Assembly: GCF_032716425.1 (NCBI RefSeq)
Contig: NZ_CP090419.1
Location: 1,614,001-1,678,000 of the forward strand
Length of the DNA: 64,000 nt
Direction: 5' to 3'
Origin: Pseudoalteromonas sp. N1230-9
GTDB taxonomy: Bacteria; Pseudomonadota; Gammaproteobacteria; Enterobacterales; Alteromonadaceae
Shown here: positions 11,240-15,699 of the stretch, one piece after another
Numbering within the stretch: the stretch's first letter is position 1
Layout: the number at the start of each line of letters is the position of its first letter
Position numbers and translations under genes: made by a program
Notes under the pieces: generated by a model
The model's database searches: none
What the model was told of the DNA's origin: nothing
The model's input: the letters and a program-made list of their open reading frames with translations, nothing else

Positions 11240-12286
11240 ATGAAAACTGTCGGTTATGCAGCACATGATTCTGAAAAACCATTAGAGCCGTATCATTTTG
11301 AACGCCGTGCACTTCGTGATGAAGATGTATCCATTGAAATTCTTTATTGTGGTGTGTGCCATTCAGACTTGCACACAGCAGAAAACGACTGGGGCTGGAC
11401 TCATTATCCTGTCGTACCAGGCCATGAAATTGTTGGCCGTGTCCTTGAAGTAGGCAGTGGCGTTACAAAATATAAAGTAGGCGATAATGTCGCTGTAGGG
11501 TGTATGGTTGATAGCTGTTTAAGCTGTGACCAGTGTCATCACGGTGAAGAGCAGTTTTGTCGCGAAGGGATGGTAGGAACCTACTCAGGACAAGACCGTA
11601 TCAGTGGTGAACTCACTCAAGGTGGCTATTCAAAGCACATTGTGGTGCGTGAAGAGTTTGTATTGAGCGTGCCAAAAGGCTTAGACCTTGCTAAATGTGC
11701 ACCAATTCTATGTGCGGGTATCACAACGTATTCGCCATTACGTACGTGGAATGTCGGCCCAGGTAGCCGTGTTGGTGTGATTGGGCTAGGTGGTTTAGGA
11801 CACATGGCGATTAAAATCGCAGCTGCAATGGGTGCACATGTTACGGCAATTAGCCGTAGTGATAAGAAAAAACAGCAGGTTTTATCTTATGGCGCAAAAG
11901 ATTTATTGGTATCGAGTGATGAAGCTGCCATGCAAGCGCATGCTAATCAATTTGATGTGATCATTAATACCATTCCGGTAAAACACGACTTTACGCCGTA
12001 TATTCCGCTTTTGGATATTGATGGTACGCAAGTATTGGTTGGTCAAGTAGGTGAGCTTGCTGAGTCTAACTCAGTGCCGTTATTAATGGGGCGTCGCCGT
12101 GTTGCTGGCTCATTAATTGGCGGTATAGCGCAAACCCAAGAGATCCTCGATTTCTGTGCGTTACATAATATTCTGCCAGAAGTCGAAATGATCAAAATGG
12201 ACCAAATTAACGACGCATTCGATAAATTAAAGCAAGGTGATATGGCCTCACGCTTTGTAATCGACATGTCATCATTAGAAGTTTGA
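11240..12286 (+). CDS. Zinc-dependent NADP(H) alcohol dehydrogenase, YahK/Ahr-like
   Basis: A 348-residue medium-chain dehydrogenase/reductase of the cinnamyl-alcohol group, likely reducing aldehydes. Catalytic zinc ligands are C40 (CGVCHSDLH) and H62 (PGHEIVG); the structural zinc is held by C93, C96, C99 and C107. The Rossmann motif GLGGLGH is at 182-188, and ISRSDKK after the second strand suggests NADP(H). GGAG precedes the ATG. It is a single-gene unit closed by a strong terminator. Confidence 0.9.
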   Translation: MKTVGYAAHDSEKPLEPYHFERRALRDEDVSIEILYCGVCHSDLHTAENDWGWTHYPVVPGHEIVGRVLEVGSGVTKYKVGDNVAVGCMVDSCLSCDQCHHGEEQFCREGMVGTYSGQDRISGELTQGGYSKHIVVREEFVLSVPKGLDLAKCAPILCAGITTYSPLRTWNVGPGSRVGVIGLGGLGHMAIKIAAAMGAHVTAISRSDKKKQQVLSYGAKDLLVSSDEAAMQAHANQFDVIINTIPVKHDFTPYIPLLDIDGTQVLVGQVGELAESNSVPLLMGRRRVAGSLIGGIAQTQEILDFCALHNILPEVEMIKMDQINDAFDKLKQGDMASRFVIDMSSLEV

Positions 12287-12301
12287 CAAAGTTAAATTAC
12301 T

Positions 12302-12332
12302 AAGCGGGCTTAATTAGGCCCGCTTTTGTTTT
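12302..12332 (+). terminator. Rho-independent terminator after the alcohol dehydrogenase gene
   Basis: Stem AAGCGGGC / GCCCGCTT with a TTAATTAG loop, followed by TTGTTTT. Confidence 0.88.
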
Positions 12333-12418
12333 AGTCACTTTTATTTAAGTAATAACTTGTGTTTTATTTTTTTACCCTCATTATATCCCTGTTATCCGTT
12401 TAATTTGTTGGTCAGTTC

Positions 12419-12856
12419 TTGTTACGGTTTTTCTCAGTCATTATCTTGCTATTTACTGTGTTCTTTAGTGCACAGAGCATGGCTATGCCTGACAATCACT
12501 CACACTATGCTGCGACTAAATTGTTCCAAGTCGAGCTGACTAAAACCCCTGTTATTTCTCAAACTCATACAGTTGAACACCCTAAACCGGTAGAACCATC
12601 GGGGTTTGATACCCTTGTGCCGCGCTTAACTGCCAGTAATTCATCATTGTTTCTTTATCATAGTCAGGTTGATCCTGATTACGAGCTATTGATTGAATTC
12701 TTTGCTGAAGATTGGGGAAAAGAGCACTTTTTAGCGCCGCCAGGTGCTGTGCGTGTGATCCCATGGTTTGCGTTAGCCACTCAACGTAAATCCCGCATTA
12801 GTGGCTGGAAAGACGCCAACCTCTTGTACAAAGCCAATACAACCTACCATAGCTAA
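12419..12856 (+). CDS. vemP: VemP-like Sec-monitoring arrest peptide upstream of secDF
   Basis: A 145-codon gene directly before a second secD-secF pair. TTG 12419 is the only usable start after the in-frame TAA at 12401. The N-terminus is a Sec signal peptide (hydrophobic core VIILLFTVFFSAQSMA, probable cleavage near residue 22). The middle is low-complexity and unlike an enzyme. The last 20 residues, RISGWKDANLLYKANTTYHS (126-145), resemble the arrest segment of Vibrio alginolyticus VemP as I recall it, and position, signal peptide and length also match VemP. In Vibrio, VemP stalls its ribosome unless Sec export pulls it free, and stalling exposes the secD2 ribosome site. A complementary element is visible here just after the stop. 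Homology is by motif memory, not alignment; the alternative is an unrelated exported protein. Confidence 0.72.
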   Translation: MLRFFSVIILLFTVFFSAQSMAMPDNHSHYAATKLFQVELTKTPVISQTHTVEHPKPVEPSGFDTLVPRLTASNSSLFLYHSQVDPDYELLIEFFAEDWGKEHFLAPPGAVRVIPWFALATQRKSRISGWKDANLLYKANTTYHS

Positions 12857-12858
12857 AC

Positions 12859-12926
12859 GACTTCCTTCGTTACTTTTTATTTTTTGGAATTAAATTTTTA
12901 CCGGCTGACAATGCCGGAAGGAAGTC
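12859..12926 (+). promoter_or_regulatory. mRNA stem that sequesters the secD ribosome binding site
   Basis: GACTTCCTTC at 12859-12868, two nucleotides after the vemP-like stop codon, is perfectly complementary to GAAGGAAGTC at 12917-12926. The latter contains the secD Shine-Dalgarno sequence (GGAAGGAAG, 12916-12924), correctly spaced for the secD ATG at 12931. A smaller stem CGGC/GCCG (12902-12905, 12913-12916) nests inside. A ribosome paused on the last codons of the upstream gene would reach the left arm and could free the secD ribosome site, as in the Vibrio vemP-secDF2 switch. Complementarity is seen directly; the switch is inferred. Confidence 0.75.
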
Positions 12927-12930
12927 ATGT

Positions 12931-14742
12931 ATGTCACATAAATCTAAGCCGGCGCTATGGCGTCGTCTAAAAATGAGTTATGTCGCTATGATAGCGGCGT
13001 GTATTTTATTAGCGGTTAGCGCACTACCTAACCTTTACCCTAACAAATCTTGGTTGCACATTAGCTTGCCAGATCAAACTGTGACGCTGCAAAGTGTGAC
13101 AACGTCACTAAATCAACATGGTTTTGAAGTGACTGAAGCCAATGATAGCCAAGCACAACTGGCTATTTTATTAGCTGAGCCGACCCAAAGTGCTAATGCG
13201 TTGAGCTTTATAAAAACGCAATACCCACAGCTAGTGGCTAAAATTGTTGAGCATGCGACAAGTCCACAATGGCTTCAGCAGCTTGGCCTTTCACCGATTA
13301 AGTTGGGACTCGACTTAAATGGTGGGGTGTTATTTGTGCTTGATGTTGACCTAGATAAAGCAATGCAAGAGCACTTAAACAGTGTGTATCAACAAACAAA
13401 ATTGACGCTTCGCAAAGACAAAATTCGTGGGATTCGGGCAAGTGAAGTAAAAGAAGGCGTTGAGCTACAAATTTTACCAAGCGGTGAGGAGCAACTGGCA
13501 GGGCTTGTCTCAACGTTACAAAGTCAATTCAAAGGCCTGATGCAAACTAAATCAACAACGAATAACCTAACCACGGTATTACTGCATTTTAATGAGCAAA
13601 GCCAAAACGAATTCAATAAACAAGTTATGGCGCAAAGCTTAACAACCCTGCGTGGTCGTATTGAAGAGCTTGGTATCACTGAAGCGGTAACACAAAGACA
13701 AGGTAAGCAGCGCATTCGCATTGAGTTACCCGGTGTGCAAGACCCATCTGAAGCAAAGCGTATTATCGGTGCAACTGCGACCCTCGATTTTTATCAAGTC
13801 GTCGAAGTAGGTGGTAAAGCGTTTAATGTGCAAGGCGGTGGCGTTGTTAATTTAAATCCGATGGTGATTTTTTCTGGTGATCACATTAATAATGCCAGTG
13901 TTGGCAAAGATGAATGGGGCAAGCCTTTAGTTCAGCTTAGCTTAGATTCGCAAGGTGGTGATGCGATGTCTGCTTTTTCGAAGCACAACATAGGTAAGCC
14001 TATGGCCACGGTGTATTCTGAATACTCACGGGATGCAAATGGCGACGTTGTGAAAAAAAGCGAAGTGATCAATGTGGCAAACATTGCCCAGCATTTAAGT
14101 TCTCGTTTTAGCATTACTAATATGAAAAGCCCGCAAGCAGCTTACGATTTAGCGCTTTTACTACGCGCAGGGTCACTCACAGCGCCAGTGACCATCGTTC
14201 AAGAACAAACCATAGGCCCAAGCTTAGGCAGTGAAAACATTGAACACGGTTTAGCAGCGTTAATGCTGGGTATCGGTATTACCCTTGCATTTATGGCGCT
14301 TTGGTATCGTCGCTTAGGGCTGATTGCCAATATTGCTTTACTGCTTAATTTAACGGCTTTAGTCGGTTTAATGTCGTTATTGCCAGGTGTTGTGCTGACC
14401 TTACCGGGGATTGCAGGACTTGTACTGACGATAGGGATGGCAGTGGATACCAATGTGATTATCTTTGAGCGAATAAAAGAAGAGAAGCGTAAAGGTCGAC
14501 CTACATATCAAGCGATTGAGCAAGGTTATAACCAAGCATTTACGACTATTTTTGATGCCAATGTAACTACGATGATCACGGCAATTATTTTATACGCCAT
14601 AGGTTATGGGCCGGTGAAAGGCTTTGCAATCACGTTAGCGCTTGGGCTATTAACCAGTGTCTTTACTGGCGTTTATATTTCGAAAGCGCTTAGCCAAACA
14701 CTCTACATTAAACTAACCAATTTGACGGGGGCTAAAGCATGA
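12931..14742 (+). CDS. secD: Protein translocase subunit SecD, second copy (SecD2 type)
   Basis: Inner-membrane subunit that, with SecF, uses the cation gradient to pull exported proteins through SecYEG. At 603 residues it has the usual layout: TM1, the large periplasmic P1 region (residues ~40-440) and five C-terminal TMs. Motifs include LGLDLNGGVLF (usual form LGLDLRGG), GMAVDTNVIIFERI, and FDANVTT with the essential aspartate D542. ATG 12931 is the start; an ATG at 12927 meets a stop after four codons. Neither tgt nor yajC is upstream, which is unusual for the housekeeping secDF and suggests a second, conditional copy. The stop overlaps secF. Confidence 0.92.
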   Translation: MSHKSKPALWRRLKMSYVAMIAACILLAVSALPNLYPNKSWLHISLPDQTVTLQSVTTSLNQHGFEVTEANDSQAQLAILLAEPTQSANALSFIKTQYPQLVAKIVEHATSPQWLQQLGLSPIKLGLDLNGGVLFVLDVDLDKAMQEHLNSVYQQTKLTLRKDKIRGIRASEVKEGVELQILPSGEEQLAGLVSTLQSQFKGLMQTKSTTNNLTTVLLHFNEQSQNEFNKQVMAQSLTTLRGRIEELGITEAVTQRQGKQRIRIELPGVQDPSEAKRIIGATATLDFYQVVEVGGKAFNVQGGGVVNLNPMVIFSGDHINNASVGKDEWGKPLVQLSLDSQGGDAMSAFSKHNIGKPMATVYSEYSRDANGDVVKKSEVINVANIAQHLSSRFSITNMKSPQAAYDLALLLRAGSLTAPVTIVQEQTIGPSLGSENIEHGLAALMLGIGITLAFMALWYRRLGLIANIALLLNLTALVGLMSLLPGVVLTLPGIAGLVLTIGMAVDTNVIIFERIKEEKRKGRPTYQAIEQGYNQAFTTIFDANVTTMITAIILYAIGYGPVKGFAITLALGLLTSVFTGVYISKALSQTLYIKLTNLTGAKA

Positions 14743-15659
14743 GTTGGTCAACATTAACTGCAGCGAGTAAAGCGCGCGTTTTAGGGTTATTGCTAAGCTG
14801 TATTTTAGTCATCGCGAGCTTAACTGTTTTATCTGTAAAAGGGCTAAACTTTGGCCTTGATTTTACAGGTGGCTACATCACGGAAATTAACACAACGTCA
14901 GTCACGACAATTACTGATTTAAAGGCAAAGTTAAGCCCTGAGGTTGCGAGTAAATTAGCCATCAGTAAAGCGGGTGAATATCACTTTGTTTTAAGAGAAG
15001 CACCAGAGGCTAGCAAAGCGAGTACTTGGCAAGCAGAGCTGAGTGAGCAAGGCGTCGACTATAGCGTATTATCTAGCTCATTTTTAGGTTCACAAGTGGG
15101 TGATGAGCTTTTTGAGCAAGGTTGTTTAGCTTTATTTGCAGCGCTGATTGCAATTATGGTTTATCTTGCCGTGCGCTTTGAATGGCGACTCGCGGTAGGT
15201 TCAGTGGTTGCACTGTTACATGATTTAATCTTGGTGCTTGGTTTGTTTTCCTTGTTAGGGCTTGAATTTAATTTAACCGTGCTGGCGAGTTTACTGGCTA
15301 TTATTGGTTATTCATTAAATGACTCAATTATTGTTGGCGACAGAGTCAGAGAGCTTTTACGTATTCAGCCAGACAATCAACGCATTAATACCCATGTTGT
15401 AATTAACGATGCAATTGGCTCTACCTTAACGCGTACATTGATCACCTCAGGCACAACACTTGCGACCATTGCCTGTATTTGGCTGCTTGCAGGGGCTGCA
15501 TTAACGGGGTTTGCCATCGCGTTATTTGTAGGCATTGTGGTGGGAACCTTCTCATCGATTTGTATCGCTGCGACCTTGCCGCAGCTATTGGGGTTAAGTT
15601 CAGAAAATTACACCCAAACACTGGATGATAAAACCAAAGCCTATATGGAGATGCCGTAA
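14739..15659 (+). CDS. secF: Protein translocase subunit SecF, second copy (SecF2 type)
   Basis: The 306-residue partner of SecD. It starts with TM1 followed by the conserved GLDFTGGYITEI, then a short periplasmic P4 domain, then five TMs carrying NDSIIVGDRVREL (with the ion-pathway aspartate) and TLTRTLITSGTT. ATGA overlap of 4 nt with secD implies translational coupling. Together the pair would drive late steps of export from the same message as the upstream VemP-like gene, so production would be tied to export demand. Confidence 0.93.
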   Translation: MSWSTLTAASKARVLGLLLSCILVIASLTVLSVKGLNFGLDFTGGYITEINTTSVTTITDLKAKLSPEVASKLAISKAGEYHFVLREAPEASKASTWQAELSEQGVDYSVLSSSFLGSQVGDELFEQGCLALFAALIAIMVYLAVRFEWRLAVGSVVALLHDLILVLGLFSLLGLEFNLTVLASLLAIIGYSLNDSIIVGDRVRELLRIQPDNQRINTHVVINDAIGSTLTRTLITSGTTLATIACIWLLAGAALTGFAIALFVGIVVGTFSSICIAATLPQLLGLSSENYTQTLDDKTKAYMEMP

Positions 15660-15665
15660 ATGAAT

Positions 15666-15696
15666 GGTGCAGGGTTAATAGGCTTAACCCTGCACC
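15666..15696. terminator. Hairpin between convergent secF and MAPEG genes
   Basis: Perfect 13-bp stem GGTGCAGGGTTAA / TTAACCCTGCACC with a TAGGC loop. No long T-run follows on either strand, so it may be a weak bidirectional terminator or an mRNA 3'-end stabiliser. Confidence 0.6.
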
Positions 15697-15699
15697 AGC

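Follow-up and report, generated by a model that had tools for sequence, protein, structure and literature searches.

The 145-codon open reading frame that precedes the second secDF pair of a Pseudoalteromonas genome (4.63 Mb, two contigs) very probably encodes, judging by its sequence, a secretion-monitoring arrest peptide of the VemP type whose stall would expose the start of secD2. The arrest step, the exact stall codon and any link to sodium are what we infer for this leader. The window referred to below is the whole stretch of 64,000 nucleotides that was analysed; its features are collected in Table 1.

Table 1. Features of the leader-secD2-secF2 locus (positions in the window)
Feature	Position	Strand	Remarks
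VemP-like uORF (leader)	12419..12856	+	145 codons, TTG start, TAA stop
Predicted Sec signal peptide, residues 1-22 (..SAQSMA)	12419..12484	+	hydropathy, sequence inspection
Conserved block, residues 63-95 (FDTLVPRLTASNSSLFLYHSQVDPDYELLIEFF)	12605..12703	+	alignments, dN/dS
Putative tunnel anchor R126-Y137 (RISGWKDANLLY)	12794..12829	+	aligned with VemP R139-Y150
PTC-proximal tail KANTTYHS (TYH type)	12830..12853	+	replaces VemP VALNSQ..
5' arm GACTTCCTTC	12859..12868	+	first base is the third nucleotide past the leader stop codon
3' arm GAAGGAAGTC	12917..12926	+	over secD2 Shine-Dalgarno
secD2	12931..14742	+	603 aa
secF2	14739..15659	+	306 aa
Terminator-like hairpin after upstream alcohol-dehydrogenase gene	12302..12325	+	consensus scan
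14-bp terminator-like hairpin after secF2	15665..15697	-	consensus scan, listed on - strand

The original prediction described a gene with a Sec signal and no enzyme-like domain, placed directly before a second secDF pair, and both points were confirmed. The N-terminus (LLRFFSVIILLFTVFFSAQSMA) is signal-peptide-like by hydropathy and inspection, with a peak 10-residue Kyte-Doolittle mean of 3.3, and the protein ends in SRISGWKDANLLYKANTTYHS-stop. Searches with the leader gave no match in Pfam or NCBIfam at E<=1 and none among PDB sequences at E<=10. A phage origin was rejected, as a phage collection contained no match at E<=1 either. The leader stop codon is followed by 74 nt before secD2. Exactly two SecD proteins of this genome score above the family cut-off; secD1 is located elsewhere, after a yajC-like gene as seen by inspection, and no leader-type motif was found at its locus.

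A terminator consensus scan of the region, which found 13 sites against 3.9 in shuffles, gave the two hairpins of Table 1. The first indicates that the leader gene probably begins a separate unit, and together they suggest a single transcription unit made up of leader, secD2 and secF2. A sigma-70 scan upstream of the leader did not find a promoter-like site. An RNA family at the locus was considered and dismissed: the sole Rfam match, L20_leader at 12250-12337, scored 21.7 bits, below the gathering score (58.7), and is probably due to chance.

The TTG start is shared by all 13 genomes of the window clade (own genome counted), and inspection ahead of it revealed no clear Shine-Dalgarno sequence. 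In the NCBI record of a close relative (P0001) the protein starts at the methionine of MAMPD, past the signal sequence, so that the TTG start can conceal the signal from automatic annotation in this clade. Leader start codons outside the clade were picked by a simple rule and are unreliable individually. Named close relatives of the leader gene are found in P. gelatinilytica, P. shioyasakiensis and P. arabiensis. At the other end of the spacer, an ATG at 12927-12929, four bases ahead of the secD2 ATG, opens a 4-codon reading frame (ATG TAT GTC ACA TAA) that overlaps the secD2 start; it is a possible decoy start for secD2.

Similarity to VemP beyond chance had been proposed, and the alignments bore it out in both directions. 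Profile-profile comparison with hhalign of 10 Pseudoalteromonas-type leaders against 20 Vibrionaceae leaders (18 distinct), with disjoint members, gave 96% and E 3.8e-9. Conversely, profile A3 (20 rows, 18 distinct, of Vibrio type and Photobacterium lipolyticum, none from Pseudoalteromonas) was run against 394 genomes of the order, and its sole match in the own genome at E<=0.1 was the C-terminus of the window leader (G000:C1:1626782-1626835, E 0.0014). A chance resemblance was rejected on this reciprocal evidence.

Residue numbers of VemP could be transferred through locus L192, a canonical-type VemP of 159 aa with the length and numbering of the V. alginolyticus protein of the literature: P67, R85, R139, W143, K144, N147, Y150, L153, N154 and Q156 all stand where they should. 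The arginine of RISGWK opens the last 20 residues of the window leader and the last 21 of L192, so the claim of a VemP-like distance from the C-terminus was upheld. Besides a signal peptide and the position before orthologous secD2F2, VemP and the window leader share R139, I140, G142, W143, K144, N147 and Y150 at a near-identical distance from the stop codon. They differ in the TTG start, in the TYHS tail and at H138, E145, T146, A148, M149, V151, L153, N154 and Q156. Consequently the leader departs from the full arrest motif HRIXGWKETNAMYVXLNXX, as given in PMC7897499, keeping its R, I, G, W, K, N and Y.

The orthology of the downstream genes was examined by phylogeny because the NCBIfam model PRK12933 gave no clean separation of SecD1 from SecD2 (644 versus 713 bits, both under its cut-off of 728). 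In a tree of 34 SecD sequences, 18 rows of SecD2 type lay on one side and 16 of SecD1 on the other (UFBoot/SH-aLRT 100/100). The former comprised 14 leader-bearing genomes outside Pseudoalteromonas, the third SecD of one of them and three Pseudoalteromonas. SecD2 of the window grouped with SecD2 of Vibrio (100/100).

In the cryo-EM structure of the VemP-stalled ribosome, R139, W143, K144, Y150 and N154 touch the tunnel, R92 of the uL22 loop contacts W143, and Q156 occupies the P site (PMC5449182). The window leader keeps R139, W143, K144, N147 and Y150 and has N, T and Y in place of L153, N154 and Q156. The uL22 loop, KRIMPRAKGRADRI, was found in the own genome and is presumably identical to that of E. 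coli. Among 59 dereplicated leaders drawn from 156 loci, R139 was retained in 53, W143 in 53, K144 in 53, N147 in 59 and Y150 in 55, conservation that is partly by construction at 143, 144 and 150 and wholly so at N147, since the column-anchoring pattern demands N147 and permits few residues at the other three positions. The low conservation of positions 151-157 is genuine, with L153 in 10 leaders and N154 in 12. The anchor R-x-x-x-W-K-x-x-N-x-x-Y recurs, and its distance from the stop codon hardly varies. The tails are clade specific. VALN-like tails occur only in genus g38 (Vibrio). TYH-like tails, a loose class that takes in TYQ, TYL, TFE and similar endings, occur in Pseudoalteromonas and in genera of families f1, f7, f11, f18 and f6; in the SecD2 tree, mapped without the leader of row G116_D3, they belong to a single one of the two subclades, G123 being the sole exception. 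The expectation of an arrest region like that of VemP thus stood for the tunnel anchor and failed for the PTC-proximal half. As this half of the V. alginolyticus motif is not conserved, the window leader is a variant of VemP and not a copy.

SecD was matched at E<=1e-100 in every one of the 108 Pseudoalteromonas genomes; a secD2, defined by at least 50% identity to SecD2 of the window, is present in 76. When the gene upstream of secD2 was collected, the leader was present in all 76 (74 loci of the scripted table plus G107 and G040, both seen individually), although in G074 leader and secD2 lie on different contigs. In G040 (L228) the leader stands about 600 nt upstream of secD2, with extra sequence in between and an HU-like gene directly before the leader. 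The anchor is intact in 48 of the 76 genomes; its K is replaced by Q or H in two, and in 26 it reads C-[KQ]-x-x-N-L, with R replaced and W changed to Cys.

Selection on the leader is markedly uneven along its length. Counted from the C-terminal end, residues 123-86, 85-46, 45-23, 22-11 and 10-1 had pairwise dN/dS values of 0.28, 0.05, 0.23, 0.00 and 0.09 among the 13 sequences of the window clade, and of 0.47, 0.09, 0.17, 0.01 and 0.13 among the 21 sequences of a second clade. Residues 22-11 from the end showed 148 synonymous and no nonsynonymous pairwise differences among the 13 sequences, in agreement with the proposal that the C-terminus is conserved among close relatives. Two segments are thus under strong constraint, one at the C-terminus and the other near residues 63-95. 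A diverged middle region had also been suggested; this holds for residues 123-86 from the end but not for residues 85-46. We regard the block 63-95 as a candidate translocon-pausing region. The cis elements of VemP are R85, a short hydrophobic segment and QxP. Its TLALFN/R85 pause element is unrecognisable in the window leader, which has a block of the form SSLFLYxxQxxPxYxxxxEFF instead. R69 of this block, invariant in leader alignments A1 and A4, sits 57 residues before R126 (54 for R85 and R139 in VemP), though the neighbouring segments do not align.

It might be argued that such a protein is simply exported, has a periplasmic function and is translationally coupled to secD2 through the hairpin described below, without any nascent-chain arrest. 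The signal peptide and the block 63-95 would suit this explanation, and coupling through the passage of ribosomes requires no stall. We consider it improbable, however, because conservation peaks within the final 22 residues, at positions that match the tunnel contacts of VemP, while overall length and the segment 123-86 from the end are free to vary; moreover, homologues before unrelated genes keep a similar C-terminus, several of them with a stem that joins the stop codon to the following start. Still less credible is a decayed VemP, in other words an ancestral arrest peptide that lost stalling when its PTC-proximal residues changed. L153, N154 and Q156 are indeed not kept, and the anchor R and W are replaced as well in the 26 genomes mentioned. 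Against decay, the last 10 residues are under purifying selection (dN/dS 0.09-0.13) and TYH-like tails recur in several families, also before DedA genes.

A hairpin is predicted in the spacer between leader and secD2. The two arms of Table 1 form a perfect 10-bp pairing with no mismatches (folding z -2.44; 4 of 200 shuffles were equally good). Stems linking stop codon and secD2 start are likewise predicted at the VemP-type loci L190, L192 and L193, and in other lineages different letters stand at the same places, such as TCATTATCTA/TAGATAATGA and TTCACTTATC/GATGAGTGAA. Set against their own shuffles, single-locus arm energies were mostly no better, the exceptions being the window clade and a few others. 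Such duplex energies often miss significance on account of A+U-rich arms, and a genome-swap test was used instead. It covered 129 of the 156 loci (12 were without a placed SecD and 15 without an ATG start accepted by the script). In 21 dereplicated lineages of Pseudoalteromonas, own arms averaged -8.21 kcal/mol against -5.49 for swapped arms (permutation p 1e-4), and in 46 lineages pooled from other genera the values were -6.70 and -5.20 (p 1e-4). Taken singly, co-variation was seen in f21/g38 (p 0.001, 11 lineages) and f6/g23 (p 0.0036, 12), but not in f2/g19 (p 0.87, 6), f7 (p 0.97, 5) or f11/g28 (p 0.70, 4). Control windows shifted by -40, +25 and +45 gave null results (p 0.87, 0.90 and 0.47). 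Pairing was weak in L033, L074, L078 and L093 (-2.8 to -5.1 kcal/mol).

The effect of a stalled ribosome on this stem was modelled by removing the nucleotides beneath it and computing the unpaired probability of the start-site region. For the window this probability rose from 0.01 to 0.24 with the ribosome edge 4 nt past the stop codon and to 0.53 with the edge at +7. In the 21 Pseudoalteromonas lineages the mean rose from 0.25 to 0.50 (+4) and 0.59 (+7), and in 56 other loci from 0.27 to 0.44. L033 and L078 hardly responded, and in L084, L093, L095 and L102 the site was open with the ribosome edge still upstream of the stop codon. As for VemP, the model thus predicts a stem-loop that conceals the secD2 start and would be opened by a ribosome near the end of the leader.

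In VemP, the pull of export relieves the stall; without pull, the stalled ribosome keeps the hairpin open (PMC7793623, PMC11470409, PMC7897499, PMC5449182). Systems of the V. alginolyticus type pair a Na+-driven SecDF1 with a Na+-independent SecDF2. By the same logic, export capacity would be read in the window as pulling force on the nascent leader. As the last codons are read, the anchor would grip the exit tunnel (uL22 loop and 23S rRNA) and the TYHS tail would block the peptidyl-transferase centre. The predicted stall zone comprises the final three codons and the stop codon. If the Sec machinery with SecDF pulls on the exported N-terminus, the stall would be brief or released, the ribosome would depart and the hairpin would hide the secD2 start. 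Under weak export the ribosome would stay stalled over the 5' arm, leave the Shine-Dalgarno sequence free and allow SecD2F2 to be made.

The position of the stall admits a further possibility, that members of this family arrest at termination: the P site would hold the codon of the final residue, and the A site the stop codon (TYHS-stop). VemP differs in stalling during elongation, when Q156 occupies the P site. The tail runs right up to the stop codon, and the distance from the anchor K to the C-terminal end is exactly 15 residues in 102 of the 156 loci in spite of widely varying protein lengths. In the window the secD2 site is more exposed when the ribosome edge stands at +7 to +10 than at +4, which fits codons 144-145 in the P site if the edge lies about 16 nt from the first base of the P-site codon. 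On the other hand, the distance from K ranges from 13 to 24 residues overall, with members at 16-24, and codon 143, which aligns with Q156, would already free the site in part (0.24). Stop codons are a mixture of TAA, TAG and TGA and so give no sign of a release-factor preference; stalling specific to one release factor was rejected on this ground. Arrest at termination is a tentative proposal, somewhat unlikely on balance.

VemP-like leaders are not confined to the window and Vibrio. A search of the 394 genomes with profile A1, which is led by Pseudoalteromonas sequences, gave matches in 117 at E<=0.5, many of them weak. Of these matches, setting aside those judged too weak, 87 loci (L108-L194) were inspected, among them the window leader itself and a repeat from the same genus. 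In 84 of these a leader was followed by an assignable gene, namely SecD in 74, DedA in 5, an S41 peptidase in 4 and a ChaA-like protein in 1; among the other three, L149 has SecD and a related C-terminus. The 156 loci tabulated altogether represent 10 families and 18 genera, the own genus counted, and named members from matched records include Vibrio, Photobacterium lipolyticum and Shewanella litorisediminis. The predicted reach beyond Vibrionaceae therefore held for the gene family, but the range is wider than the Alteromonadales to which it had been extended.

Eight Pseudoalteromonas genomes, all without secD2, carry a family member ahead of an S41-peptidase gene (L229-L235 and L249 in G021, G012, G088, G085, G077, G011, G002 and G009), assigned by Pfam PF03572 in one case and by tblastn in the rest. 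These leaders end in W[RH][DN][SN]NILxR[QH]TxHSLxL-stop, except that L249 differs, and the peptidase genes have signal-like N-termini. In seven of the eight loci a stem leads from the last codons or stop codon to the peptidase Shine-Dalgarno sequence (shuffle p 0.001-0.02); L249 shows weak pairing at the peptidase start (-6.6 kcal/mol). Two further S41 groups, f16/g33 and f6/g45, account for four loci (L127, L160, L146 and L148), and in L127 a pairing AAACCTTATT/AATAAGGTTT is visible at the leader stop codon.

In family f18 a leader profile matched 23 of 295 genomes, with a DedA-family gene 82-330 nt downstream in 21 loci (L320-L340). Most of these leaders end in ..GGWKESNxLYRGxLTYHS-stop or similar, and their arms co-vary weakly (p 0.033; 7 lineages from 12 loci with a script-recognised start). 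When leaders alone were compared, the closest named ones among the matches listed came from Serratia, Yersinia, Chania and Edwardsiella. Vibrio G483 has a diverged member (IAGWQDGNLLFRFIHSR, L194) 66 nt before a DedA gene, and members also before two secD2-like genes. In another Vibrio (L141, G412) a family member stands ahead of a ChaA-like cation/proton antiporter gene; no convincing stem was found there and this output is not claimed. A third Vibrio (L185, G448), which has a canonical-type VemP too, carries a degenerate-looking copy (..LSGRKEANLLYVF..) followed by an overlapping 123-aa reading frame.

From these comparisons we lean towards the view that force-sensing arrest peptides form a large family, present in at least 10 families of the order, of which VemP is a single branch. 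Its members would have a constant tunnel anchor R-W-K-N-Y and interchangeable PTC-proximal tails and outputs. The outputs would be secD2F2, S41 peptidases (three groups) and DedA-type transporters (one family with named Serratia and Yersinia leader relatives, and one Vibrio), typically reached by a stem from the leader stop codon that hides the downstream start.

Earlier work describes conservation of the vemP-secD2F2 operon as specific to Vibrio (PMC11470409) and the distribution of arrest peptides as narrow (PMC7897499, PMC10987492). A literature search found nothing on VemP in Alteromonadales or Pseudoalteromonas (matches to 'vemp' were the personal names Vempala and Vemparthan), nothing by title and abstract on VemP in Shewanella, and nothing on arrest peptides together with Pseudoalteromonas or with yqjA. 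Fujiwara et al. (2024) reported 339 VemP-like sequences ahead of secDF with a RxxxWKxxNxxY-like motif (PMC10987492). The window leader agrees with that definition in having such a motif near its C-terminus, being a uORF of secDF and carrying a predicted localization signal, and its relatives are therefore probably in the set, the taxon lists of which are in the supplements; the main text was not found to mention Pseudoalteromonas, Shewanella, Serratia or Yersinia. The same source describes Vibrio sp. 10N.286.49.B1 as having two copies of vemP-secD/F. Of the two secDF leaders in the matching genome (G483), one ends in THQHARFS, a tail that is not of VALN type, so that cluster probably contains diverse tails already. 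We do not claim that the secDF members or their tail variants were unlisted before. The search of PMC10987492 took in uORFs of secA, secDF and yidC, which places the S41 and DedA contexts outside its scope; uORFs without a signal were dropped from it.

Other arrest peptides resemble the leader less closely. uDF_RQH_Enterobacterales of Alteromonas naphthalenivorans, described in PMC10987492, comes from a related genus, occupies the same slot before secDF2 and has a stem-loop hiding the start, but its arrest motif is RGPP. Inspection of the window ORF found no RAPP-, RGPP- or RAGP-like motif of the kind seen in RQH/RAPP arrest peptides and SecM. SecM and MifM share the logic of a monitoring substrate with the leader but have other arrest motifs and other targets (secA and yidC2).

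The tunnel contacts of VemP are conserved across the order and its PTC-proximal residues are not, which suggests that gripping of the tunnel is separable from silencing of the catalytic centre, a division that can be tested with natural variants. If the view of a wider family is correct, the well-studied VALN tail known from V. alginolyticus would be peculiar to Vibrio, and secretion stress would set the synthesis of an envelope protease and of DedA transporters besides that of SecDF. Should the S41 and DedA contexts hold, force sensing by nascent chains would regulate more of the envelope than the Sec machinery.
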